DNA from: a bacterium
Lineage (GTDB): Bacteria; UBA10199; JAIBAG01
Length of the DNA: 64,000 bases
Assembly (NCBI GenBank): GCA_019695305.1
Contig: JAIBAG010000001.1
Location: 82,774-146,773 of the forward strand
Direction of reading: 5' to 3'
Every line of letters starts with the position of its first letter. Position 1 is the first letter of the stretch. Position numbers and translations under genes: made by a program. Below, piece by piece: positions 10,530 to 25,288 of this stretch. The notes below the pieces were generated by a model. The model was given only the letters and a program-made list of their open reading frames with translations. It was not told the origin of the DNA and searched no databases.

Positions 10530-11092
10530 AAAAAATAATTTTAATAGTTACTAGTCTTATCATTTTCATTTTAATTACCCGCTTTATTGAGATTAAAACA
10601 CCACCACTGACCGAAACTAAACCTGCTCTTAGATGCACTACCGATAGCAATGCAAACGGTTTAAAGTGCGCTACCCTCGAAGCTATCAATAAGGAATATC
10701 AGGAAAAAGTTTTACCTATGGCCAAAGAAAAATGTCTCATGTGTCATGGCCATGTAGAAAAGATGCCGCTCTATTCTGTTATTCCTCCGGCATCTTTTTT
10801 GGTAAATCATGATATTGATGAAGCCAAGGAAAAATATAACATGACTTTTGATTTTCCTTTTAGCGGTAAAGAAGGGCACGATTTTGTTGAAAGCCTTGAT
10901 GAACTAATAGACGTGATTGACGAAGGAGAAATGCCCCCTGCCATTTATTTGGCCATGCATTTAAAATCGTTTGTAAGCGCATCCGAAAAACAGGCTATTA
11001 TGGAATGGATAAAACATTCCAAGGCACTTTTAGCGCAAGAAGGAATTACAAAATCGGAAGCAGGTGATGGAAGCGATGAAGATCGTGATTAA
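10526..11092 (+). CDS. Membrane-anchored c-type heme-binding protein
   Basis: A 188-aa protein with an uncleaved-looking N-terminal anchor (MKKIILIVTSLIIFILITRF) and a periplasmic domain carrying one CLMCH heme c attachment site around residue 71. It resembles the haem-binding domain family with a conserved EMPP segment (GEMPPAIY), whose Met may be the distal ligand, and a closing helix (SEKQAIMEWIK) typical of these domains. A second pair of Cys (RCTTD, KCATL) precedes the heme site. The start overlaps the kinase stop. The acidic C-terminus (EAGDGSDEDRD) overlaps the convergent CoA-disulfide reductase stop by 4 bases. Electron-transfer partner unknown. Confidence 0.8.
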   Translation: MKKIILIVTSLIIFILITRFIEIKTPPLTETKPALRCTTDSNANGLKCATLEAINKEYQEKVLPMAKEKCLMCHGHVEKMPLYSVIPPASFLVNHDIDEAKEKYNMTFDFPFSGKEGHDFVESLDELIDVIDEGEMPPAIYLAMHLKSFVSASEKQAIMEWIKHSKALLAQEGITKSEAGDGSDEDRD

Positions 11093-12714
11093 TTTGTATT
11101 TCTGGCCTGCAGAAAGCCACCTTTTAAATTAGCCACCTGAAAACCGTTTTGATTAAGTATTTGATAGGCCAGATATCCACGCTGGCCTTTTTGGCAATAC
11201 ACCACTATTTTTTTATCTTTTGGAATTTCATGTAAGCGATCGCGTAACTGGGAAACTGGAATATTAACTGAATTACCCAATTTCCCAAATTTTTGTATTT
11301 CATCGGGATTACGCACATCCACCAAAAAATCTGCTTCTGAAAAAGTTTCGATCGTCCGTACATCACCCTTCACTTCGTGCCCCGCTACAAATGAAGCAAT
11401 ATTGATGGGATCGTTGGCCGATCCAAACGGTGGAGCATAAGCTAAATCGAGTGATTCCAAATCGTGCACGGTCATTTTACCGTAGATTGCCGTGGCTAAA
11501 ACATCCACGCGTTTATCTACCCCATTTTCTCCCATTACTTGTGCACCTAAAATGCGGCCGCTACCTTCCTCCACTAAAAGTTTGGTAATTACAGTTGTAG
11601 CACCGGGATAATAGGAGGCATGAGAAGGATCGCGCGTTGTTGAGGTAAAAAAGGTAAAACCAGCATCTTTGGCCTGTTTGCTATTTAGCCCCACATATCC
11701 AATTGTTTTATTAAGAAGACGCACAATAGATGTGCCTAAAGCGCCCGGATAGGTAAGATGGGCTCCCGCAGCATTAGCTCCCGCAATCCGCCCCTGACGA
11801 TTAGCCGGGCCAGCCAGCGGAATACGTAAACGTGCGCCAGTAATAAGATGTGTTGTTTCGGCGGCATCACCCACCACATAAATATCGGGATCGGATGATT
11901 GTAAACGTCCATTAGCCTTCACTCCTCCCGTCACACCAATTTCCAAACCGGCCTCGCGAGCAAGCGCCACTTCGGGTTTTACTCCTACCGATAAGAGTAC
12001 CATATCCGCATTTACCTTTTGTCCGTTTTCCAAAACAACAAAATCTTTTCCCATTTCGCTAGCGCCTATGGCATTTAAAATGGTGAGTGTGTTTGCATAA
12101 TCCTGCTCCATATCTCGCACCAGCTCACGTGCCATATCGTCATCTAATAGAGGCAAAATATGCGGGGCCTTTTCAATAACCGTCACCTTTAAACCACGGT
12201 GCATTAAGGCCTCGGCCATTTCTAAACCAATAAACCCACCGCCAATAACAGCCGCCGTTTTTGGATTTTGGGTTTTAATAAATAAATCTATCTTGTCCAT
12301 GTCGGGCACATCACGCAAAACAAACACATGTTCGGCGGGTAAACCTTTAAAAGGAGGCACAATCGGCATGGCGCCCTGGCTCATAATAAGTTTATCGTAT
12401 ACCTCGTCGATAATAGACCCATCGGGGGTTTTTACTTTTACTTTTTTAGCTACACGATCAACACTTAGAACCTCATGCCGAATAAGGGCTTTTATACGAT
12501 ATTTATCCCAAAATTTTTGCGGAGTCATTAAAAGCAGTTTTTCACGATCTTTAATTTCGCCGGCTATGTAATAAGGAAGACCACAATTAGCAAAAGAGAG
12601 ATACTCACCCCGTTCAAAAACGGTAATCTCCGCATGTTCATTAACCCGGCGCGCTTTTGCGGCCGCTGTGGCTCCACCGGCCACACCACCAATAACAACT
12701 ATTTTAAGCGACAT
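11089..12714 (-). CDS. CoA-disulfide reductase / persulfide reductase with C-terminal rhodanese
   Basis: A 541-aa flavoenzyme of the CoADR-Rhd type, which uses NAD(P)H to reduce CoA disulfide or CoA persulfide. Residues 7-13 hold the FAD fold GGVAGG; the active-site Cys is in SFANCGLPYY near residue 44; NAD binding is AVIGGGFIGLEMAEAL near 155; the second FAD motif is IYVVGDAAE. Residues about 445-541 are a rhodanese domain with loop VVYCQKGQRG, whose Cys would carry a persulfide. It is third in an operon after a membrane rhodanese and an ArsR-type repressor, with a 14-base gap, which strongly supports sulfane-sulfur handling. Whether the preferred substrate is CoA disulfide, CoA persulfide or polysulfide cannot be told. 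Confidence 0.93.
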   Translation of the reverse strand: MSLKIVVIGGVAGGATAAAKARRVNEHAEITVFERGEYLSFANCGLPYYIAGEIKDREKLLLMTPQKFWDKYRIKALIRHEVLSVDRVAKKVKVKTPDGSIIDEVYDKLIMSQGAMPIVPPFKGLPAEHVFVLRDVPDMDKIDLFIKTQNPKTAAVIGGGFIGLEMAEALMHRGLKVTVIEKAPHILPLLDDDMARELVRDMEQDYANTLTILNAIGASEMGKDFVVLENGQKVNADMVLLSVGVKPEVALAREAGLEIGVTGGVKANGRLQSSDPDIYVVGDAAETTHLITGARLRIPLAGPANRQGRIAGANAAGAHLTYPGALGTSIVRLLNKTIGYVGLNSKQAKDAGFTFFTSTTRDPSHASYYPGATTVITKLLVEEGSGRILGAQVMGENGVDKRVDVLATAIYGKMTVHDLESLDLAYAPPFGSANDPINIASFVAGHEVKGDVRTIETFSEADFLVDVRNPDEIQKFGKLGNSVNIPVSQLRDRLHEIPKDKKIVVYCQKGQRGYLAYQILNQNGFQVANLKGGFLQARNTN

Positions 12715-12728
12715 ATTGTCTCCTTTTT

Positions 12729-13052
12729 TTAAGCACCAAATTTTTTGGCAATTGAATTTTTATATCCTTCGCAAATATGGCTACACAGCTGCAATACAAA
12801 GGGTCCTATCATCCGATAATACACTGTTGTTTTGTCGCGGCGACTACTGAGCAAGTGGGCCCGGCTTAAAATGGAAAGATGACGCGAAATATTAGCTTGG
12901 GCTGTTCCTACCTCGGCCACAATATCGCCCACACTTTTTTCGCCATCATGCAGATACTGCATAATTTTTAAACGTGTAGGATCGGATAAAGCCTTCATCA
13001 TCACGGCAATGTTTGATAATTCCTGATCATTTAATTTATCAAGCTTGGCCAT
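12729..13052 (-). CDS. ArsR/SmtB-family repressor, probably reactive-sulfur responsive
   Basis: A 107-aa winged-helix repressor: ALSDPTRLKIMQYL, then the recognition helix TAQANISRHLSILSRAHLL and wing RRDKTTVYYRM. The arsenic-type CVC motif of helix 3 is absent. Two Cys sit four residues apart in the last helix (LCSHIC), and there are no others, which would suit thiol or persulfide sensing as in YgaV/BigR/SqrR relatives, although those use a different Cys pair. It overlaps the upstream rhodanese gene by 14 bases and precedes the reductase by 14. A palindrome in front of the operon (13587-13608) is the obvious operator. Sulfur sensing is inferred from the neighbours. Confidence 0.9.
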   Translation of the reverse strand: MAKLDKLNDQELSNIAVMMKALSDPTRLKIMQYLHDGEKSVGDIVAEVGTAQANISRHLSILSRAHLLSSRRDKTTVYYRMIGPFVLQLCSHICEGYKNSIAKKFGA

Positions 13053-13575
13053 TTTTTACCTCGCACGCAGGGAATTTATTAAATGGAAGTTTGGAGAGAA
13101 GTACAGCCATGCCACAAAATCCGCTAATGCCAGAAAACATTAAACCACAACCTACAAAAAGACTTAGGCCTAAAAAATAGGGGTGCACTGTTTTTGAAAG
13201 AATAATGCCCAGTACCACTAAAAACCCGGCAACCAATTGAACCTGCCTCATAAGTGGGAGCGTTTTAAGTGATCCTGTTACAAGCCCTGCATTTTTACAG
13301 GCTTTGATGCCGCCTTCTATACAGATGAGATTTTGATTCCCGCGTGCCATCAGCACTTGACGAGCCCGCTCGCTGCGAACGCCGCTTTGGCACACTAAAT
13401 AGAGTTTTTGCGCAACAGGAAGAACTACTTTACCCGTTTCTATTTGAGATAGCGGAACATTATGAGAGCCCTTGATATGCGCCGCATTAAATTCATCGGG
13501 TTCGCGCACATCCACCACACAACATGATTCTTTATCTAAAAGCTCGCTTAATTGTTTTGGCAAGATACTTGTCAT
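13039..13575 (-). CDS. YgaP-like membrane rhodanese (sulfurtransferase)
   Basis: A 178-aa protein with an N-terminal rhodanese domain (CCVVDVREPDEF ... active loop LVCQSGVRSER) and a C-terminal pair of membrane helices (about 115-165; VQLVAGFLVVLGIILSK and FLGLSLFVGCGLMFSG), the layout of E. coli YgaP. The catalytic Cys lies in CQSGVR, close to YgaP's CQAGKR. The start is the ATG at 13575, behind GGAGG; an upstream in-frame ATG at 13623 would span the operator and is less likely. In E. coli ygaP is partnered with the ArsR-type ygaV; here an ArsR gene overlaps its 3' end and the CoA-disulfide reductase follows, giving a three-gene sulfur operon. Confidence 0.92.
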   Translation of the reverse strand: MTSILPKQLSELLDKESCCVVDVREPDEFNAAHIKGSHNVPLSQIETGKVVLPVAQKLYLVCQSGVRSERARQVLMARGNQNLICIEGGIKACKNAGLVTGSLKTLPLMRQVQLVAGFLVVLGIILSKTVHPYFLGLSLFVGCGLMFSGISGFCGMAVLLSKLPFNKFPACEVKNGQA

Positions 13576-13586
13576 GAAACCTCCTA

Positions 13587-13608
13587 TATATAAGCAATTA
13601 CTTATATA
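13587..13608 (-). promoter_or_regulatory. Candidate ArsR-type operator/promoter palindrome
   Basis: TATATAAG-CAATTA-CTTATATA is a perfect 8-bp-arm inverted repeat directly upstream of the rhodanese Shine-Dalgarno (GGAGG). AT-rich palindromes of this type are usual for ArsR/SmtB repressors, and the arms themselves resemble -10 boxes. The repressor is encoded in the operon it precedes, so autoregulation is likely. It could also affect the divergent MaoC-like gene. Confidence 0.6.
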
Positions 13609-13684
13609 AAGATTGAAGTACAATTTGTCAACGGGTCATTTTTTTTACTCGAATATCAAAATCAAGTTTGCTAGAGCATACAGC

Positions 13685-14543: not shown

Positions 14544-15299
14544 TCAGATAACTAATTGATGTTTGCTGTTAAACAACACTTTGTGGATTCCCAACGCCAG
14601 CGAAATGGATGAAAATCCAAACGCAAACGTGAGCATAAAAATTATTACCAGTTGGTATTTTACAGCTACTAATGGATTTACACCCGCCATCACAAGCCCC
14701 GCCATGGCTCCCGGCAAATAAATAATACCCAAAGTTTTAAGCGTATCTACCATGGGCATGGAACAAATTTTGATAGCCCGGTTAGTTAACGGAATAATCA
14801 CTTCTTTGGCCGAAATTCCCAAAGATAAATTGGCTTCAATTAAACTTTTAGATTGTTCTATTTCAAACGTAACCCGCTCAATAAAAAAAGAACAATTGTT
14901 CATCACCTGCCCAATTAAAATACCGCCAATAGGAATAATATACTGTGCCTTCCAGGCAATTACCTTAAATAAACACAAAATAATGAGGATAGACGGCGGC
15001 ACTAAATAAATAACCAGCGCAATAAGCACACCCATTCTTTTATATTTTTTCCAGCGTCGCGCTGTTAAAAAAGTGGCGGCTCCACACATGATAAATAATA
15101 TACCGCTTACAGCCCATACATGATCAACTTTAAACAACCACAACACCACAAAACCCGCCGCCGTTAATTGTACAATACCCTGGAGCGAGCTTAAAATGAT
15201 GGGGAGAGTGAGATTAATGCGACGTAAATAAAGAAAAAGGGCAAAGAGTAAAATAAGAGAATAGGATAATGCCATCGAGGTATAGCTAATGTCGTTCAT
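14544..15299 (-). CDS. fetB: FetB-like ABC transporter permease (UPF0014)
   Basis: A 251-aa permease with seven or so membrane helices, of the UPF0014 family (E. coli FetB/YbbM, described as part of an iron exporter). Diagnostic segments are GQVMNNCSFFIERV and SMPMVDTLKTLGIIYLPGAMAGLVMAG. The start at 15299 overlaps the fetA stop (ATGA); the longer frame to 15371 lies inside fetA and is not used. It is the last gene of the maturase/peptide, binding protein, kinase, fetA set. In this setting the cargo may be the modified peptide or its metal rather than free iron; that is inference. Confidence 0.88.
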   Translation of the reverse strand: MNDISYTSMALSYSLILLFALFLYLRRINLTLPIILSSLQGIVQLTAAGFVVLWLFKVDHVWAVSGILFIMCGAATFLTARRWKKYKRMGVLIALVIYLVPPSILIILCLFKVIAWKAQYIIPIGGILIGQVMNNCSFFIERVTFEIEQSKSLIEANLSLGISAKEVIIPLTNRAIKICSMPMVDTLKTLGIIYLPGAMAGLVMAGVNPLVAVKYQLVIIFMLTFAFGFSSISLALGIHKVLFNSKHQLVI

Positions 15300-15937
15300 A
15301 TTCCTCCCTTTTTTAGAAAAAGCGGATTTACACCCAAACGCTGGGCTTGTGCGGCATCGTGCGTAACCCACACTACACGGACATTCAATTTATGAATCAA
15401 ATCTAATAGTACCGATTCAATCTTGCGAGTGGTATCCAAATCTAAATTGGCGGTGGGTTCATCTAAAAGAAGAATTTCGGGATCGTTTAATATAACGCGC
15501 ACTAAGTTAACACGCTGCAATTCACCGGTAGATAAATCACGTATTTGTTTATTTAAAATAGAAGGGTCTAAAAGAACGTCCTGCATGAGCGCTTCTAATC
15601 TGCTTTCTTCAATTTTCTTTTTATGCTGAGTGGGTCCGTAAAGAACAAAAGTATTCACAGTTTCTTCTGGCAACGCTTTTAGTTGCGGCATCAACGCCAC
15701 TTTATGACGAAGTTCTAAAACGGGAATTTCGGCAATAGATCTTTCTTTATAAAATATCTGGCCGTCCTGAGGGTCAATAAGACGGTTTAATAAACGCAAC
15801 AGTGTGCTTTTTCCAGATCCGGAGCTCCCCATAACAACATTTATTTTTTCGTCTGGAATAATAAAATTAAAATCCGAAAAAATTGAGGTGTCTGAAAATG
15901 AAAGCCTAATATTTTTTAATGTAAATAGAGGGTTCAT
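15296..15937 (-). CDS. fetA: FetA-like ABC transporter ATP-binding protein
   Basis: A 213-aa ATPase: Walker A GSSGSGKSTLL (about 36-46), Q-loop MPQLKALPEE, signature LSTGELQRVNLVR, Walker B ILLLDEPTANLD and switch WVTHDAAQ. It is full length and intact. Both ends overlap neighbours by 4 bases (kinase upstream, permease downstream), so subunits are co-translated. The pairing with a UPF0014 permease is the E. coli FetAB arrangement. No dedicated import permease of the dipeptide class is present, so this is the only ABC transporter available to the operon's binding protein within the window. Confidence 0.9.
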   Translation of the reverse strand: MNPLFTLKNIRLSFSDTSIFSDFNFIIPDEKINVVMGSSGSGKSTLLRLLNRLIDPQDGQIFYKERSIAEIPVLELRHKVALMPQLKALPEETVNTFVLYGPTQHKKKIEESRLEALMQDVLLDPSILNKQIRDLSTGELQRVNLVRVILNDPEILLLDEPTANLDLDTTRKIESVLLDLIHKLNVRVVWVTHDAAQAQRLGVNPLFLKKGGI

Positions 15938-17643
15938 TTATTCTCCGGTATCCAAAAACTAAAAGTAGTTCCTTTTCCTTGTTCGCTTACAACACTTATA
16001 ACGCCTCCATGTAATTCGATAATTTTTTTGGAAATAGCCAAGCCTAATCCCAATCCCTTGCGTTTGGTGGTGGTAAAATCGTCAAATAGAGTTTCCAGTT
16101 TATCGGCAGGAATACCAATACCGTTATCATTCACCTCAAATAATGTTTTACCAAAATCACTATTAACATTTAGTTTAATAATTCCGCCATTTGGCAAGGC
16201 TTGCAGCGCATTGGTCATAAGATTAGACAGTACACGCACCAGTAAAAAATAATCGGCTTTCACAACATGCTCGTTGTCGGCATCAAAAATAAGTTCAATT
16301 TTTTTATCGACGGCCTGTAACTCAAAACGACTTTTAAGATCAGCCAATAATTTTCCAATATTAATATCGCTGCGGTTAAACGGCATTTCAGAAGTTAAAT
16401 CCTTTAAATTACTAAAAAAAAGATCCACGTTATTAAACTCGCGCGTCACTACATTAGAAAAATCCGTAACAAATTTTGGATCACCAGCCTTTGTAGGCAT
16501 TAGCTTGGCCCAATTGCGAATATTGGTAATGGGGTGTTTTAAATCGTGCACAAGCCCACCCGCAATTTTACCAATGAGCGATAGACGTTCTTGCTTGCGA
16601 ATTTGACCGGCCTGAAAGGACAATTGCTGGGCCATCTCATTATAATGGCCTCCCATATCCGAAAATTCATCGTGGGTATCTAGTCTAATGCGATGCTCCC
16701 AATTACCGTGCGCAATTTCTTCCAAACCCAGCGTCAGTGTTTTAACTGGAGACACCACCATTTTTTTAACACTCCAATAACCAACAACAAGCATAAGAGC
16801 AATTACCAGTATAGTGAGTACCAACATTTGAATGGAAAGATGATTGGCTAATTGAAAAGCTTCTTCTGTGGGTTCGCGTACCAGCAAAATACCACCAAAG
16901 GGCAAATCAAGAGGCATTAACGACACTAAATAACGATTTGAGTTAAGTGTTTGAATAAAACTTTGAGACCCATGAATAAAATCACTAAAGCCCGGATAAG
17001 GTTTAAGCTCAAATAAAACCGACATGTTGGACGAGGCAAAAATATTACCCTTGGCATCCACTAAAAAAGCCTCACCTGTTTTTCCAATTTTCATCTGGTG
17101 CACCAGATGCCAGGCATAAATTAGATTAAGTTCGGCCACTAAAACTTTTTGTACTTTGCCTTCCTTTTTTATGGGCAAATAGACGCTAATAGCAGGCCTA
17201 ACCGGTGGCGGATTTTGTGCAATGTACACATCGCTAATGGCCATTTGCCCCTTCAGCAATTGTGGGGTTTTCTCTCTTAAATCAACAGCAGGTGGTTTTT
17301 CAAACTGACTTTGCTCTAAAACATTTCCGTCTAAATCGGTAATCATCAAATATTGAAAATAGGGATAGTTGGCAAAGGCCATTTTTAACAAATGGTCGTA
17401 TTCGTCTTGGGTGTAGCTAAATTGTTCCAACTCGCGGGAGAGATTTTGTAAAATATCAAAGCTATTATCAAAATAATTGGATACATCTCGAGTAGTGGCA
17501 CGGGCCACTTCCAAATTGGCCTGCATCACTTGTTCTTTACTAACCTGACCTATACGACTGATGGAAATAGTATGAAAAACTATTACGGGTATAATAGCCG
17601 ATAATAAAAAAATGAGGGTTAATTTAAAAAAAACTGATTTCAT
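15934..17643 (-). CDS. Sensor histidine kinase with dCache-like periplasmic domain
   Basis: A 569-aa membrane kinase. TM1 is about residues 7-27, a large periplasmic dCache-type domain spans about 30-265, TM2 about 270-291, HAMP about 292-345. The phospho-acceptor is His366 in GGLVHDLKHPITNI; N-box NLMTNALQAL, G1 DNGIGIP and G2 GLGLGLA complete the ATPase domain. The H-box is of the type that pairs with NtrC-family regulators, and such a regulator is encoded at 23278-24693. Its start overlaps the stop of the solute-binding lipoprotein gene (ATGA) and its stop overlaps fetA, so sensing and transport genes are one translational unit. The binding protein may deliver its ligand to the sensor domain. 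Confidence 0.93.
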   Translation of the reverse strand: MKSVFFKLTLIFLLSAIIPVIVFHTISISRIGQVSKEQVMQANLEVARATTRDVSNYFDNSFDILQNLSRELEQFSYTQDEYDHLLKMAFANYPYFQYLMITDLDGNVLEQSQFEKPPAVDLREKTPQLLKGQMAISDVYIAQNPPPVRPAISVYLPIKKEGKVQKVLVAELNLIYAWHLVHQMKIGKTGEAFLVDAKGNIFASSNMSVLFELKPYPGFSDFIHGSQSFIQTLNSNRYLVSLMPLDLPFGGILLVREPTEEAFQLANHLSIQMLVLTILVIALMLVVGYWSVKKMVVSPVKTLTLGLEEIAHGNWEHRIRLDTHDEFSDMGGHYNEMAQQLSFQAGQIRKQERLSLIGKIAGGLVHDLKHPITNIRNWAKLMPTKAGDPKFVTDFSNVVTREFNNVDLFFSNLKDLTSEMPFNRSDINIGKLLADLKSRFELQAVDKKIELIFDADNEHVVKADYFLLVRVLSNLMTNALQALPNGGIIKLNVNSDFGKTLFEVNDNGIGIPADKLETLFDDFTTTKRKGLGLGLAISKKIIELHGGVISVVSEQGKGTTFSFWIPENK

Positions 17644-19091
17644 TTATACTTTTGCTCCTCACGAGGTACCCAAATTTTTTGAATTTCATAAAAGAATTCA
17701 TCAAAATTGGGGTCATACCCCCTAAACCGTTTATGGATAATCATGGGAATATGCCGTTCCAACAAACTAAAATAAGTGGGGGCCCGCTGCAGCAATTTTT
17801 GGGTTTCTAAAAAAGCTTCTTCGCGTTTTTGTGGTAAAAACTCATAACGAATATCATCCACAACCTGTTTTTTTTCTTCAACTGTTAAAAGTGTTTTTTG
17901 ATTTTCGTTTGCATACTCGTAAACATACAGGTCATCAAATAAAAAATCGGCAGGATAAAGGGCAAGGTCATATTTTTTTTCATGCACCGCTTTTACAAAA
18001 TCGTTAAAAACAAAAGGATGAATAGTAAGCTTAATACCTTGTGCATAAAAGGACTGAATAAGTTGGTATAAAATAAAATCACTAAATTCATGCTCTTTAA
18101 TAGTAATTACATTTAAGACAGAAGGAAGTGTAGAAACAGATATGTCATTATTAATAGTTACTTCTTGGGAAGCAGAAGTTTTTGTTTCACCTATTTGGTT
18201 AATAATTGAAGCTTCATGTAAAAGACGCGCCATACTCTGGCGACTCGCTTGAGAACTCAATTGTGGATTATCAACATTTAGGTCTATTACATAATGAAGG
18301 GGTTTCTTTTGAAAAAGAACACGATATGTATTGTTGTCTTGAAACAGTTTTTCGTAAGTGGGATCGGCCAAATACAAGAAATCGAGATCTTCACGAGTGA
18401 GCATGGCCAAACCTTCCATGTATGTAGGCAAAAAATAAATTAATACCTTATTTAAATAAGGTCCTTTTTTATAATAATGTTTATTAGGAACAAGTGTTAA
18501 AATACCTTGGTTTGCATTGTAATCTAATACACCAAAAGCCCCTGTTCCATTCATTGTAGGCTTCTCACCCTTATCCCATTGACCTTTTTTAGTAATTGGA
18601 ATCAATTCTAAAGCATAACTAAAAAAAGCATCATAGCGCTTAAAAGTAAATTCTACTTCGTTTTCTCCTACAACTTCTATTTTATCTAAATTTATAAGCA
18701 AATTGTGATATGAACTTTTTTCGTGATCTTTATTGTATTGAAAAGAATAACATACATCATCCGGCCTTAACCTGGTGCCATCCTGAAAAAAAGCATTTTC
18801 ACGCAAATGGATACGCCAAACGGTTTTATCAGCATTAGTGGTGTACGATAATGCCAAATCGGGAACAAGCATATTGCTGCCGGTCATTTCAAAAAGTGTA
18901 GAATATACCATGTCGCTAACCAAACCCTGCCCTCCAAGTGGATCAAGATAAATATTAGCTGCAGGATCAAATACGAGCATATCGATACCAATATGCAGTT
19001 CGTCTCCGTGCTGTGGATGTTTTGAATGGGTATTACATGCCGATGCAATAAGTAGACCAAGGATAAGAAAGTAAAATGTGGTTTTCGTCAT
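17640..19091 (-). CDS. Family-5 solute (peptide)-binding lipoprotein
   Basis: A 483-aa periplasmic binding protein of the SBP_bac_5 (OppA/DppA/NikA/MbnE) family. The signal MTKTTFYFLILGLLIASAC has a lipobox with Cys19. The fold is visible as 'YSTLFEMTGSNMLVPDLALSYTTNADKTVWRIHLR', then FQDGTRLRPDDVCYSF, the classic W-x-F/I-x-L-R, F-x-D-G-x-x-x-x-A/DDV pattern. Family ligands are peptides, nickel complexes or peptide metallophores. There is no cognate Dpp/Opp permease nearby; instead it is fused by ATGA overlaps to a sensor kinase and FetAB. Its ATG lies only 36 bases beyond the terminator of the maturase/peptide unit, with no clear own promoter and no strong ribosome site, so read-through from the peptide operon is possible. 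Confidence 0.9.
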   Translation of the reverse strand: MTKTTFYFLILGLLIASACNTHSKHPQHGDELHIGIDMLVFDPAANIYLDPLGGQGLVSDMVYSTLFEMTGSNMLVPDLALSYTTNADKTVWRIHLRENAFFQDGTRLRPDDVCYSFQYNKDHEKSSYHNLLINLDKIEVVGENEVEFTFKRYDAFFSYALELIPITKKGQWDKGEKPTMNGTGAFGVLDYNANQGILTLVPNKHYYKKGPYLNKVLIYFLPTYMEGLAMLTREDLDFLYLADPTYEKLFQDNNTYRVLFQKKPLHYVIDLNVDNPQLSSQASRQSMARLLHEASIINQIGETKTSASQEVTINNDISVSTLPSVLNVITIKEHEFSDFILYQLIQSFYAQGIKLTIHPFVFNDFVKAVHEKKYDLALYPADFLFDDLYVYEYANENQKTLLTVEEKKQVVDDIRYEFLPQKREEAFLETQKLLQRAPTYFSLLERHIPMIIHKRFRGYDPNFDEFFYEIQKIWVPREEQKYK

Positions 19092-19127
19092 GTATTGCTA
19101 ATGTGAATACCATAAAGCACCTTAAAC

Positions 19128-19154
19128 AAAAAGCCCCCATAAAGGGGGCTTTTT
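19128..19154 (-). terminator. Intrinsic terminator/attenuator after the peptide gene
   Basis: AAAAAGCCCCC-ATAAA-GGGGGCTTTTT, an 11-bp perfect stem with a 5-base loop. Read on the minus strand it is followed by T5-G-T3. It lies 21 bases after the stop of the 25-codon peptide gene and 36 bases before the binding-protein start. It would make the maturase/peptide transcript abundant while letting some polymerase continue into the binding protein, kinase and fetAB genes. Confidence 0.88.
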
Positions 19155-19175
19155 GCGATAATAAACAGGTCAATT

Positions 19176-19253
19176 TTAATATACTACAGGTTTGCAGCTC
19201 ATCATTTTGGGTTTATCTTTTTTAACACCTTTTTTAATTACGATAGTATTCAT
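19176..19253 (-). CDS. Small peptide (25 aa), candidate RiPP precursor for the adjacent radical SAM enzyme
   Basis: A 25-codon gene, too short for ordinary gene finders. It begins MNTIVIKK, has a lysine-rich middle (GVKKDKPK) and ends MMSCKPVVY followed by TAA. An excellent ribosome site (AAGGAG, 5 bases before the ATG) precedes it, it begins 29 bases after the maturase stop on the same strand, and a strong terminator follows 21 bases later: the normal setting of a precursor peptide beside a radical SAM/SPASM enzyme. The single Cys, Pro and the C-terminal Val-Val-Tyr are plausible modification sites; in mycofactocin biosynthesis a SPASM enzyme acts on a C-terminal Val-Tyr, but the other mycofactocin genes are absent here. 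The coding call rests on position and signals, since 25 codons carry little statistics. Confidence 0.72.
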   Translation of the reverse strand: MNTIVIKKGVKKDKPKMMSCKPVVY

Positions 19254-19282
19254 AACTGCTCCTTTTTAGTGGCGAGGTTTAG

Positions 19283-20719
19283 TTAAACTGAGAACATTCC
19301 GATGTCCCCGCTATAATCATCAGAAGTCTCTTGATTAAAAACAGTTTTAGTTTCAAGATTGGCGCGTGTTACATCCAGCCCATCTTCATAGCCAATGGTC
19401 TCATTTAAATTGCGTTCAAACATTTCCTGCACCATTTGCTTAAAATAAAGTTTGTCACACGAACCTATGCTAAAATCCTGGTAGCGCTCAAAACCCACAG
19501 CCTTGCAACCACCAGCACAAACAGGAATAAACGCGCAATCACCACAGTCTTTCCACGGCGTAATACCTGTACCCATGCGTTCATCCACCTTTTTAATATC
19601 AGCGCCCTGCCATATATCGCCCGAGGCAAATTGTTCTTTGCCCACCATGGCCGAGCATTTGTAAAGTTTCCCGGTCATATCCACTCCAAAAAAACTTTTA
19701 CGGTGCAGTTCGCACGGCCCAATACCAATTTGGTCGTTTGACGGTAAGTTTTTGGATTGAATATAATTGCGGGTACGCATCATCACCTCTACGTGATGAG
19801 CATCAAAAGCAGGTCCTGTAAAATCGGTACGCACAGGCGCTTCTGTTTTTTGTTCGTACGCCTGAATAGGCTTAAATTCGGCACTAAAAATATTATTTCT
19901 AAACGGAGAATCGTTTAAACGATCCACCAGCTGCTTTAAACTATTTTCGTTTTGTGAATTAAAATTGCCACCAATATAAAAGGGAATGATACCGGCCAGA
20001 TCCGATAAATTAGCCCAAATTTTATCAAAGGTTCCTTTACCACTTTGGGTTACACGCAATTTATCGTGGTCGTGCTTATCACCATCGAGTGTAATTTTAA
20101 TCCATTTAAGTCCTAGTTTAATCCATTCTTTCACTTTCTCCCGTTTTAGCATCACGCCATTGGTTACTATTCCAAATTCAAACTCCGTATTTTGTTTAAG
20201 ACAGAAACGCTGCGTTTCTGTAGCAATATATTCAAGAACAGGAACGTTCATTAAGGGTTCACCACCAAAAAAGGTAATGGCAACTTTTTTGGATTTATAT
20301 TTCAAAACTCTTTCATTATTGAATTCTACAAACTGGCGCGCCGTTTCCATGCTCATATTAAGCCCCTTGGCCAAAACATCTTTTTCAAAGCAGTAAGGAC
20401 AGCGCAAATTGCAGGTACGTGAGGTTAAAAGAAGGTAAGAAAGCTCTTCGTAATTGTTGCGTACTTTTTCATCAAACCAATTTAAAAAATCTTGTTTTTC
20501 ATTGGTATTGTCATCAACCAAAAAACCGCATTCAACAAACGTTTCGCATAGTTTTTCTTCGGCATCTGTTAGTGGAGTTTTATTTTTTATTTTATTTTTA
20601 AATGTGTGAAGAATATTTTTGTCGTCACATAATACTTGCGAATCGGAAAATGTATTATATACAAGACAACGTTTTTCATGAGCCTTCTCGGCAATAACAT
20701 TGAATTTCGACCACTGCAT
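19283..20719 (-). CDS. Radical SAM/SPASM peptide maturase
   Basis: A 478-aa radical SAM enzyme. Residues about 1-95 look like a peptide-recognition region before the barrel. The cluster motif is CNLRCPYC (Cys103, 107, 110), followed by the SAM-binding FFGGEPL. The C-terminal SPASM region has GPCELH, YKCSAMVG, the core CGDCAFIPVCAGGC and a last SCDKLYF Cys, enough ligands for two auxiliary clusters as in anSME-type and RiPP maturases. I chose ATG 20719 behind AAAGGGGGG rather than TTG 20740. A sigma-54 promoter lies 40-56 bases upstream of that ATG, and a 25-codon peptide gene follows in the same transcript, so it most likely modifies that peptide. An anaerobic sulfatase-activating role is unlikely, as no sulfatase is nearby. 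The exact chemistry cannot be read. Confidence 0.92.
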   Translation of the reverse strand: MQWSKFNVIAEKAHEKRCLVYNTFSDSQVLCDDKNILHTFKNKIKNKTPLTDAEEKLCETFVECGFLVDDNTNEKQDFLNWFDEKVRNNYEELSYLLLTSRTCNLRCPYCFEKDVLAKGLNMSMETARQFVEFNNERVLKYKSKKVAITFFGGEPLMNVPVLEYIATETQRFCLKQNTEFEFGIVTNGVMLKREKVKEWIKLGLKWIKITLDGDKHDHDKLRVTQSGKGTFDKIWANLSDLAGIIPFYIGGNFNSQNENSLKQLVDRLNDSPFRNNIFSAEFKPIQAYEQKTEAPVRTDFTGPAFDAHHVEVMMRTRNYIQSKNLPSNDQIGIGPCELHRKSFFGVDMTGKLYKCSAMVGKEQFASGDIWQGADIKKVDERMGTGITPWKDCGDCAFIPVCAGGCKAVGFERYQDFSIGSCDKLYFKQMVQEMFERNLNETIGYEDGLDVTRANLETKTVFNQETSDDYSGDIGMFSV

Positions 20720-20758: not shown

Positions 20759-20775
20759 AGCAAGGGCTGTACCAA
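20759..20775 (-). promoter_or_regulatory. Sigma-54 (-24/-12) promoter for the maturase/peptide operon
   Basis: On the minus strand the sequence is TTGGTACAGCCCTTGCT, matching the RpoN consensus YTGGCACG-N4-TTGCW with the required GG-N10-GC spacing. Transcription would start near 20748, about 30 bases before the maturase ATG. A sigma-54 activator gene lies next door (23278-24693), and palindromes in enhancer position lie 130-265 bases upstream. The rest of this 395-base gap is AT-rich and otherwise empty. Confidence 0.75.
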
Positions 20776-21114: not shown

Positions 21115-23133
21115 ATGCATAGTAAATTATCTATTTTTATTTCTTTGTTTTTACTTTTGTCTTCTACCGCTTTTGCATCGCCTACTATCGAAATTTCGGT
21201 AATTGCCAACAAAACAGAGGAAAACAATTCAAAAATACCTCATACGGTAGATGTCATTTCTCATAAAAAATTGGCTCTGCAAAAGAATGCTACCATCAGC
21301 GATATGCTGCATCAAATTTCGGGTCTTTATGTGGCTGAAAAGGGTTTAAGCGGCGACGATTTAGATATCCGTATGCGTGGCTCCGATCGCGATGAAGTGT
21401 TGGTTCTTTTTGACGGCGTTCCAATTGAGGGCAATGGAGAAGCCAGATCGTTTTTTCTTAACATGATGCCCGTTGAATTTATTGACCGTGTAGAAATTAT
21501 TAAAGGCGCACAAAGTGTTTTATATGGCTCCAATGCTGTTGGTGGAATCATCAATATTATTAGCCGAAACGGCTCAAAGCAAGAACCCCATTATTTTGCC
21601 AATTTTGCTTACACTACTGATAATTCTTTTCGAGAGGCTTTGGGTACAAGCTTGGGCAATGAAAAAACAGCTTTTAACATGGGGGTTATGAGGGACGACT
21701 CTAAAATATTAAATCACTTTAACGATCAATCCGACACCACGGGGTTACACCTTAATCTCAATCATCAGGTTTCCCCCGGTTTTAAAGTAACATGGGGATT
21801 AGATACATTTTTTGGCCGACAAAATTTAGCCTACGATCAAATTAATGCGTTTGGAGCCACCGTTAATTCGTATGTAGTGCCTGATGACGATATTAAAAGA
21901 AAAATAGGCTGGTTTCAGTCTTACATCAAGCTAGAGGCACAAATTACCGAGCGTTTTAAATCGGCCCTTCAAATTGCCGGCAACTATTTAACCGAGACAC
22001 TGGCTAATACTAATGCGGGTGATAGCCCCGTGGATGAAAATGGTTTGCCACTGGATGCCAGCTCGCAATATTATTTGGGTCATTCTTACCGCATTTATAC
22101 CGATTTTTTAAATCAGTACCGTCTTTTTAAAAGCTCTAACATTAAAGATGATGTACAAGTAGGCATCAGTGTCATTCACGATCATTTAGATTTTATTAAT
22201 AATTCATATCCGGGAGACATAGGCGCTGGCCTCCCCTCTACCGATAGTTATCCCAGCCCTGGTGAAAAATCGGGACGAGAAAATTATTCGTTTTATTTTC
22301 AAAATCTTTTTTACTGGAATAATTTTACGCTTACTACAGGTGCCAGAATAGATCATAATACCACCTTTGGCAGCGAATGGTCTCCGCGTGTTGCGGCATC
22401 GTATGAGTTCAAAAAAACATCCACCACTATAAGAGCCAGTTACTCAGAAGGATTTCATGCTCCTACCATTGCCGAATTTTTTGATGCCACCATTGGTAGC
22501 ACAGTAACGGCATTGTCTTTAAAGCGCCATCAAGAAACCACACAAAGCTATGAGGCCGGTATTGAACAAAACTTGTTCGATAATAAATTAAAACTACGCG
22601 GCACTTATTTTTACATCAGCTACAACAAGCTGCTGGATATCTTAGAAGCGATCAATAGTGCTAACTCGTGGGGTATTGAAAATGATGTTTCTACATCGCT
22701 TGTTCCCAAAACCAAATTAGGAATCAACTACACATTTAACCATACCCATAATGACGATACGGGCAAAGAACTTACCATGCGCCCACATCATATGCTTAAT
22801 ACTTATGTGGAAATGGAGCCTATTGCCAATTTTACAATTAGGCCAGAACTTCAATATGTTTCTAGAAGAAAAAATCCTGAAACCATCAGCCTTACTATAG
22901 GAGATTTTCCAGTACAGTTTTTTAATTCAAAGGGTGAAACGAGTACCTATACCAGCAGTCATACCGCTCTCAATCTACTGCTCAATTATAAATGGATAAA
23001 TCCTACTAAAAATTTAAAGGCTGTTAATCTGTATGCAAAAGGAACTAACTTATTCAATAGTCGGTACGATAATAATTATGGTTATCCTGTAAACGGTTTT
23101 AGAGTTACTTTTGGTAGCAATTTTGAATTTTAA
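21115..23133 (+). CDS. TonB-dependent outer-membrane receptor
   Basis: A 672-aa receptor. Signal MHSKLSIFISLFLLLSSTAFA, then a plug domain (about 35-150) with DMLHQISGLYV, DIRMRGSDRDEVLVLFDGVPIEG, VEIIKGAQSVLYGSNAVGGIINII, all hallmark BtuB/CirA-type segments. The rest is a 22-strand barrel ending in the usual terminal Phe (GSNFEF). A ribosome site AAAGGA is about 20 bases before the ATG, longer than normal, so the exact start is slightly uncertain. It is divergent from the maturase/peptide operon and shares the palindrome-rich region with it. Family members import siderophores, cobalamin or metallophore peptides; uptake of the product of the neighbouring maturase is the attractive guess. tonB/exbBD are not in the window. 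Confidence 0.93.
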   Translation: MHSKLSIFISLFLLLSSTAFASPTIEISVIANKTEENNSKIPHTVDVISHKKLALQKNATISDMLHQISGLYVAEKGLSGDDLDIRMRGSDRDEVLVLFDGVPIEGNGEARSFFLNMMPVEFIDRVEIIKGAQSVLYGSNAVGGIINIISRNGSKQEPHYFANFAYTTDNSFREALGTSLGNEKTAFNMGVMRDDSKILNHFNDQSDTTGLHLNLNHQVSPGFKVTWGLDTFFGRQNLAYDQINAFGATVNSYVVPDDDIKRKIGWFQSYIKLEAQITERFKSALQIAGNYLTETLANTNAGDSPVDENGLPLDASSQYYLGHSYRIYTDFLNQYRLFKSSNIKDDVQVGISVIHDHLDFINNSYPGDIGAGLPSTDSYPSPGEKSGRENYSFYFQNLFYWNNFTLTTGARIDHNTTFGSEWSPRVAASYEFKKTSTTIRASYSEGFHAPTIAEFFDATIGSTVTALSLKRHQETTQSYEAGIEQNLFDNKLKLRGTYFYISYNKLLDILEAINSANSWGIENDVSTSLVPKTKLGINYTFNHTHNDDTGKELTMRPHHMLNTYVEMEPIANFTIRPELQYVSRRKNPETISLTIGDFPVQFFNSKGETSTYTSSHTALNLLLNYKWINPTKNLKAVNLYAKGTNLFNSRYDNNYGYPVNGFRVTFGSNFEF

Positions 23134-23277: not shown

Positions 23278-24693
23278 GTGGATGAACTTATAAAACAAAA
23301 TTTTCGAAAGTATAAAATTCTTGCTGTAGACGACGATCCTTCCATTTTGGATTTCATCGACACAATTTTAGGTGGCGATTATCAAATCTTAAAAGCCAGC
23401 TCGTGTGAAGAAGCAAAGCGTATCAGTTATCAGGAAGATTTTCAGCTAGTCTTGCTCGACTATTCTTTACCCGATGGCACGGGCGAAGAGCTTTTAAAAT
23501 ATTTTAAAGATATCAATGAAAACGTAGAAGTTATCATGGTGACCATGCACCAAGATATTAAAAAAGCTGTGGCCTGCACGCAGCTGGGCGCCTTTGATTA
23601 TATTGATAAAGATTTTGACCCTGATGATTTAAAAAATTTGGTTCATAATGCCATCACCAAATATTTACGGCAGCGTAAAATTATTTCTCTTGAGAGCGAA
23701 ATTGAAACTTTAGTGCAAGATCAATTCATTTTGGGCTCCAGCCCCAAAATGCATAAAATTAACGACATTATTGCCAAAGCCTCTCAAGTACCGGCTACAG
23801 TGCTTATTACCGGTGAATCGGGAACCGGAAAAGAAGTGATAGCCCGTCGCATTCACACCTTGTCCGATCGCAAATTCGGCCCTTTTATAGCGCTTAACGT
23901 GGCTTCTGTACCCCCTGATTTAATTGAATCTACTCTGTTTGGCCACGAGCGTGGTTCTTTTACCGGTGCCCATAAACTTCATTACGGAAAATTTGAGCTA
24001 GCCGATAATGGGACACTCTTTTTAGATGAAATTGGTGATTTGCGAATTGACTTACAAGCCAAGCTTTTGCGTGCTTTACAAGAAAATATTATTGAACGTG
24101 TTGGCGGCAACCGATCTATTCACACTAATGTTCGTATTATTGCCGCCACCAATGCTCATTTGGAACAAAAAATTTTAAAGGGTGAATTCAGAGACGATTT
24201 ATTTTATCGCCTTAATGTATTACGAGTGCATTTACCCCCGTTACGAGAACGATTGGAAGACATTCCCGATTTTGTGCGCTTTTTTATTAGAAAATATAAT
24301 AAAAAATTTAACCGTAATGTTGAAAATATCTCGGAACTGGTTTTGTCTATTTTGGCTCACTACACCTGGCCGGGCAATATCCGCGAACTTGAAAATTTAG
24401 TTGAGCGCCTCATTGTGTTATCAGAAAAACCCTATATTACCGAAGGTGATATTCCGGTAGAATACTTGGTAAGTGATTTTGAAACGCTTAAAAAGCGATC
24501 TCCTGATGGTGATATTTTGGTTCAAGCAACCGAAGCTTTTGAGCGTAGCTTCATTTTAAAAATTTTGGAAAAAGAAGAATGGAATCAGACTAAAACTTCC
24601 CAACGTCTTGGTATTCATCGCAAAACCCTTGAATATAAAATTAAAAAATACGATCTGGGCGCTATCATTGTTCAAAAAAGAGCTACAGCTTAA
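23278..24693 (+). CDS. NtrC-family sigma-54 response regulator
   Basis: A 471-aa regulator with three domains. The receiver (about 12-125) has VDDD, phospho-acceptor Asp61 in VLLDYSLPDG and the conserved Lys in YIDKD. The AAA+ domain has Walker A GESGTGKE, Walker B GTLFLDEIGD and the arginine-finger region FRDDLFYRLN. The sigma-54 contact loop reads GSFTGA rather than GAFTGA. The C-terminal Fis-type helix-turn-helix is TKTSQRLGIHRKTLEYKIKKY. The only in-frame start is GTG 23278; no Shine-Dalgarno precedes it, but TTGCCT-N15/16-TATAGT just upstream would place the transcript start within about 10 bases, so it may be leaderless. Direct TTATC[CT] half sites at 23180, 23192 and 23205 hint at autoregulation. 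Partner kinase: probably 15934-17643. Confidence 0.95.
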   Translation: MDELIKQNFRKYKILAVDDDPSILDFIDTILGGDYQILKASSCEEAKRISYQEDFQLVLLDYSLPDGTGEELLKYFKDINENVEVIMVTMHQDIKKAVACTQLGAFDYIDKDFDPDDLKNLVHNAITKYLRQRKIISLESEIETLVQDQFILGSSPKMHKINDIIAKASQVPATVLITGESGTGKEVIARRIHTLSDRKFGPFIALNVASVPPDLIESTLFGHERGSFTGAHKLHYGKFELADNGTLFLDEIGDLRIDLQAKLLRALQENIIERVGGNRSIHTNVRIIAATNAHLEQKILKGEFRDDLFYRLNVLRVHLPPLRERLEDIPDFVRFFIRKYNKKFNRNVENISELVLSILAHYTWPGNIRELENLVERLIVLSEKPYITEGDIPVEYLVSDFETLKKRSPDGDILVQATEAFERSFILKILEKEEWNQTKTSQRLGIHRKTLEYKIKKYDLGAIIVQKRATA

Positions 24694-24838: not shown

Positions 24839-25288
24839 ATGAATTATTCAGTATCTTCTTTAAAAACGTTACTAATTGTAGATTCTCATCTTTTGGAAGT
24901 TCAGAGTTTGAACAATATTTTAGAAAAAAGTCATTATAAAGTTTTAGCCACGAGTGATGCCGCCACCTCGTGGAGAACCATTCAAAAAGATTCGCCCGAT
25001 ATTTGCTTAATTGTAATTTCAAGTCTTGAAAGCCTTAATTTAATTCTTAACATACGCAGGCATTATACTCCCGAACAATTGCCCATAATTGTTATTGGAA
25101 ACAAAAACGAGGAGGAATCTTTAATTGAAACTTTAGACCATGGGGCCAACGATTATATTGTAAAACCCTACAATAAAAAAAGTGTGCTCAAAAAAATCTA
25201 TAACTTAATTTGTATTAAAGAACTCACGGCCCAACATATTCAGCTTAAAAACAGGCTTGAAAACATTCTGGAAAATTCCCCTTCATAA
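24839..25288 (+). CDS. Receiver-only protein lacking the phospho-acceptor Asp
   Basis: A 149-aa protein with the fold of a response-regulator receiver and no output domain. The helix/strand order and the closing HGANDYIVKPYNKKS (conserved Lys-Pro) are clear, but the acidic pocket is VDSH instead of DD, and the position of the phospho-acceptor Asp (P-D-x-x-L-x-D in normal receivers) is SPDICLIVIS, with Val there. It therefore should not be phosphorylated normally and belongs to the atypical receivers. A short coiled coil (QHIQLKNRLENILEN) ends it. GAGGGAGT precedes the ATG. It follows the NtrC-like gene by 145 bases, with shared palindromes between, so it may modulate that regulator by protein contact. 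Confidence 0.78.
   Translation: MNYSVSSLKTLLIVDSHLLEVQSLNNILEKSHYKVLATSDAATSWRTIQKDSPDICLIVISSLESLNLILNIRRHYTPEQLPIIVIGNKNEEESLIETLDHGANDYIVKPYNKKSVLKKIYNLICIKELTAQHIQLKNRLENILENSPS

Follow-up and report, generated by a model that had tools for sequence, protein, structure and literature searches.

A conserved single-cysteine precursor peptide beside a SPASM maturase and a sensor gene block: a possible modified-peptide signal in Gram-negative lineages

Several described peptide systems resemble parts of the locus presented here. The ranthipeptide and sactipeptide maturases CteB, ScfB, and PapB share a layout of RRE, radical SAM, and SPASM domains as well as a Cys in the core, and their well-known precursors carry several Cys residues or a Cys-x3-Asp/Glu pattern. 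The geopeptide maturases (TIGR04280) likewise pair an RRE-SPASM enzyme with a short precursor. Among signalling systems, LuxP/LuxQ/LuxO joins a periplasmic binding protein to a sensor kinase and a sigma-54-type regulator. Radical SAM peptide genes are also tied to peptide signalling in the streptococcal RaS-RiPPs controlled by Rgg/SHP (PMC13361665). Those are Gram-positive systems with cytoplasmic Rgg sensors, and they are not known to include an SBP, TonB, or sigma-54 part. A review describes the CteB leader as a strand lying against the RRE (PMC8326336), and in mycofactocin a Val-Tyr dipeptide constitutes the entire core (PMC7491314). Our literature search found no mention of geopeptide or TIGR04280 in the papers it covered and, among those listed, none describing the architecture reported below.

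The window, by which we mean the whole 64,000-nucleotide stretch of DNA that was analysed, carries a tiny gene between a radical SAM/SPASM maturase and the genes for a solute-binding lipoprotein (SBP) and a membrane histidine kinase (Table 1). On sequence and comparative grounds, this 25-residue frame is a real gene encoding a predicted RiPP precursor, the last gene of a maturase-peptide operon, and both the precursor and its locus are well supported. The leader begins MNTIVIKKG, the sole Cys stands at position -6, and the core reads CKPVVY. A gap of 29 bases separates the maturase stop from the precursor start, and the terminator begins 19 bases past the precursor's own stop; the ribosome site, the spacing behind the maturase, and the closing terminator were all found where a preliminary description of this DNA had placed them. 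A terminator-like hairpin 3' of the peptide was present at 14 of the 16 loci tested (12 strong and 2 weak). No NCBIfam model recognises the precursor family.

Table 1. Features of the peptide block in the window, and precursor peptides of the clade.
Feature	Position	Strand	Details
UPF0014/FetB permease	14544-15371	-	continues the SBP-kinase gene string
FetAB-like ABC ATPase	15296-15937	-	continues the SBP-kinase gene string
Membrane histidine kinase	15934..17643	-	dCache_1, HAMP, HATPase_c; overlaps the SBP gene end
Solute-binding lipoprotein (SBP_bac_5)	17640..19091	-	lipobox LIASAC
Intrinsic terminator ending the maturase-peptide operon	19126..19156	-	13-bp stem, dG -22.8
Precursor peptide gene	19176..19253	-	25 aa, MNTIVIKKGVKKDKPKMMSCKPVVY; ATG start; from sequence and comparison
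Ribosome-binding site region	19254..19266	-	AAAAAGGAGCAGTT before the ATG, AAGGAG a few bases upstream; from sequence
Radical SAM/SPASM peptide maturase	19283..20719	-	N-terminal winged-helix (RRE-like) domain
Predicted sigma-54 promoter	20759..20774	-	TGGTACAGCCCTTGCT; matches the scoring consensus at 16/16; -55 relative to the maturase start
TonB-dependent outer-membrane receptor	21115..23133	+	BtuB/Cir-like plug; divergent from the maturase
NtrC-type sigma-54 response regulator	23278..24693	+	best-conserved block gene, ~50% identity
Precursors, first samples			MTIKVIKKGNKSTETNMTGCLAYFF (G031); MKIKVVKKSDSMNKVKHTDCRGHLF (G036); MKVKVVKKGQKSTKTQLTGCLAYFF (G021); MKVKVVKKGEKTQKTQLTACFGYFM (G017); MKIKKGQKINQPKPAMCRPVVW (G015); MKIKAIKTQKTLRSNNQRCGYYVF (G040); MTIKKGKKISDPKPAVCRPMVF (G013); MKITIVKDGTKGTNPAPTYCWPFWH (G029); MKVLKIKKVVRQKAVCSWYLY (G059)
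Precursors, wider sampling			MKVIVLKKGVKPEKVCAWFKY (G174); MKIIKKGSKIVVPRPDCQVVIDWR (G386); MKIIKKGSKIIVPRPDCQWVLDHR (G385); MEAKSKVIRKDSRRRQERQPGGGGTGGPRCGEGPV (G223); METRKKQPRKHIVLSYCRPYQLY (G233)
Precursors, G060 and G207			MKLTVIR[V/T]GKPGPLGCVILR; upstream of the maturase
Precursor, G393			39 residues, C-terminus CHDAGMF

Counting the window's genome, matches to the tiny gene occur in 18 genomes that span several deep bacterial lineages, with one for each maturase of the clade that has flanking sequence. The preliminary description had read the frame as the precursor of the adjacent SPASM maturase and had proposed comparing small frames beside orthologous maturases; this comparison, which could have come back with no conserved frame, returned one beside every orthologous maturase with flank, along with a signature of selection at the protein level. 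The first samples comprised 10 other genomes with maturases 25-36% identical to that of the window, nine in the same class and one (G059) outside it. A ribosome-site-led frame of 21-25 aa lies behind the maturase in 9/9 of those whose contig runs on, and G043, whose contig stops just past the maturase, was left out of the precursor count. The wider sampling covered 385 genomes plus follow-up searches. The class- and phylum-mate searches gave 1-46 genomes each.

The precursors are mostly 20-25 aa long (two are longer), are led by a ribosome site, and usually lie directly downstream of the maturase with a terminator at the end. They share a Lys-rich leader resembling MKIKVVKKG and, close to the C-terminus, one Cys. 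In all 18, the only Cys lies 5-8 residues before the C-terminal end, a placement that differs from those of the well-known ranthipeptide and sactipeptide precursors. It falls exactly at -6 in 12 (the window, G031, G036, G021, G017, G015, G040, G013, G029, G059, G174, and G223), including all 10 precursors from the window, its class relatives, and G059. The core ends vary (e.g. CLAYFF, CRPVVW, CWPFWH, and CSWYLY; final pairs FF, LF, FM, VW, VF, WH, LY, and KY). The expectation that the last seven residues would be the most conserved was borne out in part: the end remains hydrophobic or aromatic and the Cys stays in place, but what lies between them varies, and conservation of the N-terminal MKIKVVKKG stretch is no lower.

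In the window maturase, the CxxxCxxC motif corresponds to C103/C107/C110 and the seven-Cys SPASM set to C336, C355, C392, C395, C401, C405, and C421, all of which are invariant in the 16 aligned members (A1/A2). The nearest solved structure is CteB, both by profile (5wgg, 170 bits) and by fold (E 7e-17). An AlphaFold model built from 13 rows (mean pLDDT 67.6), the SPASM part of which is not reliable, opens with an RRE-like strand-strand-strand-helix-helix(-helix) arrangement (pLDDT 71-90) and continues into the barrel. A single-protein scan of genome contigs returned nothing closer than distant SPASM enzymes from the gut, none with an SBP; these were used as the outgroup and supplied rows for the structure model. 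A plasmid search gave five matches, all distant.

No named family lies nearer to the maturase than TIGR04280 (geopeptide maturases), its best NCBIfam match. The score is 238 bits, where the family cut-off is 400; other clade members score 140-296 where listed. The PapB and SCIFF models also score under their cut-offs (148 of 340 and 125 of 425). A branch of the maturase tree with support 89/80 sets the 18 single-Cys members apart, and four Cys-Cys members form a separate branch with support 100/100. Three geopeptide loci over the cut-off (G310, 636 bits; G387, 642 bits; and G353, 619 bits) have Cys-Cys peptides upstream (e.g. MENQEIIILDAGIGDEIGPSALCCYVAFIPYQHK), and these, with G330, which looks like a geopeptide locus, are the source of the Cys-Cys criterion. 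No SBP was found beside the maturases of these four, though G310 shares with our clade a TonB receptor, placed upstream. We accordingly rejected geopeptide membership for the window's system on its sub-threshold score, its single Cys as opposed to Cys-Cys, and the finding of no SBP beside the true geopeptide maturases. The single-Cys clade is a sister to the geopeptides, and it is new within the SPASM-peptide field, with a previously unmodelled precursor and an unusual sensor block.

The short Cys-Cys peptides that precede geopeptide-clade maturases at L088, L103, L126, and L127 (three of the maturases being over the TIGR04280 cut-off) begin with a stretch resembling IIILDxGxGD or ELIVLEEG and, by their appearance, are the precursors of the geopeptides. 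TIGR04281 was considered as a geopeptide precursor model and rejected as an unrelated periplasmic family.

The SBP gene adjoins the maturase-peptide pair at 18/18 clade loci, with a prepilin-like gene between them at G174. No SBP was seen at the other SPASM loci checked, the four geopeptide loci included, many of these loci having only ~1.4 kb of flank on each side. By family profile, the SBP is closest to the oligopeptide-binding AppA (365 bits, compared to ~230 bits for NikA); SBP_bac_5 proteins bind metals and other ligands as well. No Dpp/Opp-type ABC permease was seen in the block, and this arrangement, an orphan SBP with a sensor kinase behind it, suggests a role in sensing. In the window's class and in several other lineages, the block contains a histidine kinase of that family (most with a dCache domain) together with an NtrC-type regulator and a TonB receptor; one or another of the three is absent from the available flanks in some lineages (G386, G385, G060, G207, and G174). 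Neither a dedicated exporter nor a leader protease was found in the block. The combination of SBP, sensor kinase, and sigma-54-type regulator recalls LuxP/LuxQ/LuxO, but here a RiPP maturase, a peptide, and a TonB receptor are linked to it and the SBP belongs to family 5 (the peptide/nickel type), and we claim no homology between the two.

Predicted sigma-54 sites upstream of the maturase score 16/16 in four genomes, that of the window among them, and 14-15/16 in seven more, mostly at 31-66 bases from the maturase start (-292 in G036). Poor sites (10-12) occur in five genomes, all of which lack a neighbouring NtrC-type regulator, and no sigma-54 site was found upstream of the TonB gene in five genomes. 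A terminator lies between the maturase-peptide operon and the SBP and kinase genes, so expression of the sensor genes need not entail that of the peptide; this separability and the sigma-54 site together support a circuit in which a sensed ligand turns the peptide on.

Whether that ligand is the peptide itself can be approached through divergence. Within the class, identity to the window's proteins is 49-53% for the regulator, 32-35% for the maturase, 30-33% for the kinase, 22-34% for the TonB receptor, and 18-25% for the SBP, a fall toward the SBP and TonB receptor that would fit a diversification of the ligand-facing parts along with the core. Within-class covariation with the core gave a partial Mantel r of 0.33 (p 0.05) for the SBP, which showed no signal in the wider set, and of 0.53 (p 0.045) for the TonB receptor. 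Covariation of core and receptor beyond shared ancestry is thus only suggestive within the class, for which reason we give the full feedback loop a probability of about 0.45.

From these features we infer the chemistry and function of the system, whereby an enzyme-modified RiPP would serve as a self-amplifying peptide signal in Gram-negative lineages. The basic MKIKVVKKG leader would dock as a strand on the RRE-like domain of the maturase, a step with good support; the position of the CteB leader fits the conserved, strand-like leader found here. With similarly good support, the radical SAM/SPASM core would modify the short C-terminal core around the single Cys. The modification would most likely be a thioether from Cys to a carbon of a following residue, judging by the CteB-like enzyme and the conserved Cys. 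Less certainly, a housekeeping protease would remove the leader and a product of 5-8 residues would exit the cell, possibly to re-enter through the TonB receptor, be bound by the SBP, and be reported to the kinase. The NtrC-type regulator would then fire the sigma-54 promoter of the maturase-peptide operon, producing self-amplification.

Two alternatives concern what the small frame encodes. That it is a chance open reading frame behind the maturase hardly deserves credence. In 464 kb of the same genome (400 kb of stretches plus the window), some ribosome-site-led frame of 20-41 aa does lie within 150 nt downstream of 37/356 control genes, or ~10%; however, across the 356 genes no such follower had its sole Cys at -6, and one had it at -5 to -8. 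Moreover, third positions account for 12/20, 10/17, 6/8, 16/23, and 16/25 of the codon differences in five pairs of homologous peptides, an excess that indicates selection on the protein. Conservation in 18 genomes of the same leader and Cys placement, together with this signature, refutes the chance reading. We also find it very improbable that a redox cofactor of the mycofactocin/PQQ kind is made from the C-terminal Val-Tyr, despite that ending and the SPASM enzyme next door. Among the precursors compared, Val-Tyr is confined to the window member, and it is the Cys that forms the fixed feature of the core; MftC is not among the 25 best NCBIfam matches of the maturase, and none of the mycofactocin partners (MftB/D/E/F) was found among the neighbours scanned, which are sensor and transport genes. 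The mycofactocin-like C-terminus put forward in the preliminary description is accordingly not upheld, and its own caution that the resemblance may be coincidental proved apt, as an ending present in one member only marks it as coincidence.

The remaining alternatives accept a modified peptide and differ as to its use. Acting as a metallophore, the Cys peptide would chelate metal outside the cell, TonB would import the complex, and the SBP and kinase would sense the loaded form, by a logic like that of methanobactin or of siderophore-sensing two-component systems. The BtuB/Cir-like receptor, the inclusion of NikA in the SBP superfamily, and the capacity of Cys to act as a metal ligand all agree with this, as do FetAB-like metal-exporter homologues, which lie behind the kinase in the window and near the block in only some relatives, two in number (G021 and G017; L028:3934-4830, L028:13798-14463, and L030:2905-3585), so that the pair is an optional member of the block. 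We nevertheless consider a metallophore unlikely, given that the cores offer one conserved metal ligand, with no conserved His, Asp, Glu, or second Cys, that the SBP profile favours oligopeptide binders over NikA, and that the block has no SBP-linked ABC importer and no constant FetAB-like genes. A Pfam scan of the neighbours likewise found no methanobactin enzyme (MbnB/DUF692 or MbnC). A secreted antimicrobial or competition peptide, whose production would be triggered when the SBP and kinase sense an outside peptide cue, could account for the inducible sigma-54 operon and the variable cores, and many SPASM RiPPs are antimicrobial. We regard this use as decidedly unlikely, because no immunity gene or dedicated exporter was recognised in the block, the core is very short, and toxin production needs neither a TonB receptor nor an SBP, which are parts for uptake and sensing.

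Returning to the self-amplifying signal, a broader proposal seems to us possible, if somewhat against the odds: that several deep Gram-negative lineages share a radical-SAM-modified pheromone system, composed of a single-Cys precursor (20-40 aa) and an RRE-SPASM maturase together with a TonB receptor, a peptide-type SBP that stands as an orphan and presents the ligand to a dCache kinase, and an NtrC/sigma-54 feedback promoter, in which the cores particular to each lineage would act as private signals. Should the feedback hold, the signal would be a radical-SAM peptide sensed across the Gram-negative envelope, a setting in which little modified-peptide signalling is known. More generally, the 18 precursors listed provide a rule for recognising such genes, namely one Cys 5-8 residues from the end in a peptide encoded beside a geopeptide-like maturase and an SBP. 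The host lineages are known here mainly from fragmented genome assemblies.

Some further features were observed in and around the block. SBP genes of family f14 (L026, L027, L028, L030, and L032) are missing ~10 residues of the FHDGxxLTAxDV region and have a conserved xxVxC end, as if altered for a non-transport role. A stand-alone receiver-domain protein is encoded right behind the NtrC-type regulator in the window (24839-25288). Several unrelated lineages have type IV pilus assembly (pilMNOP-like) or prepilin-like genes next to the block or to a geopeptide locus (L035:16077-18904, L100:10695-13010, L101:2337-5071, L084:6198-6809, and L088:12858-14553). Elsewhere in the window (11089-13623), one gene string encodes an FAD-dependent reductase with a rhodanese-like end, an ArsR-like regulator, and a rhodanese-like membrane protein, probably a sulfur-handling operon and apparently unrelated to the peptide block.
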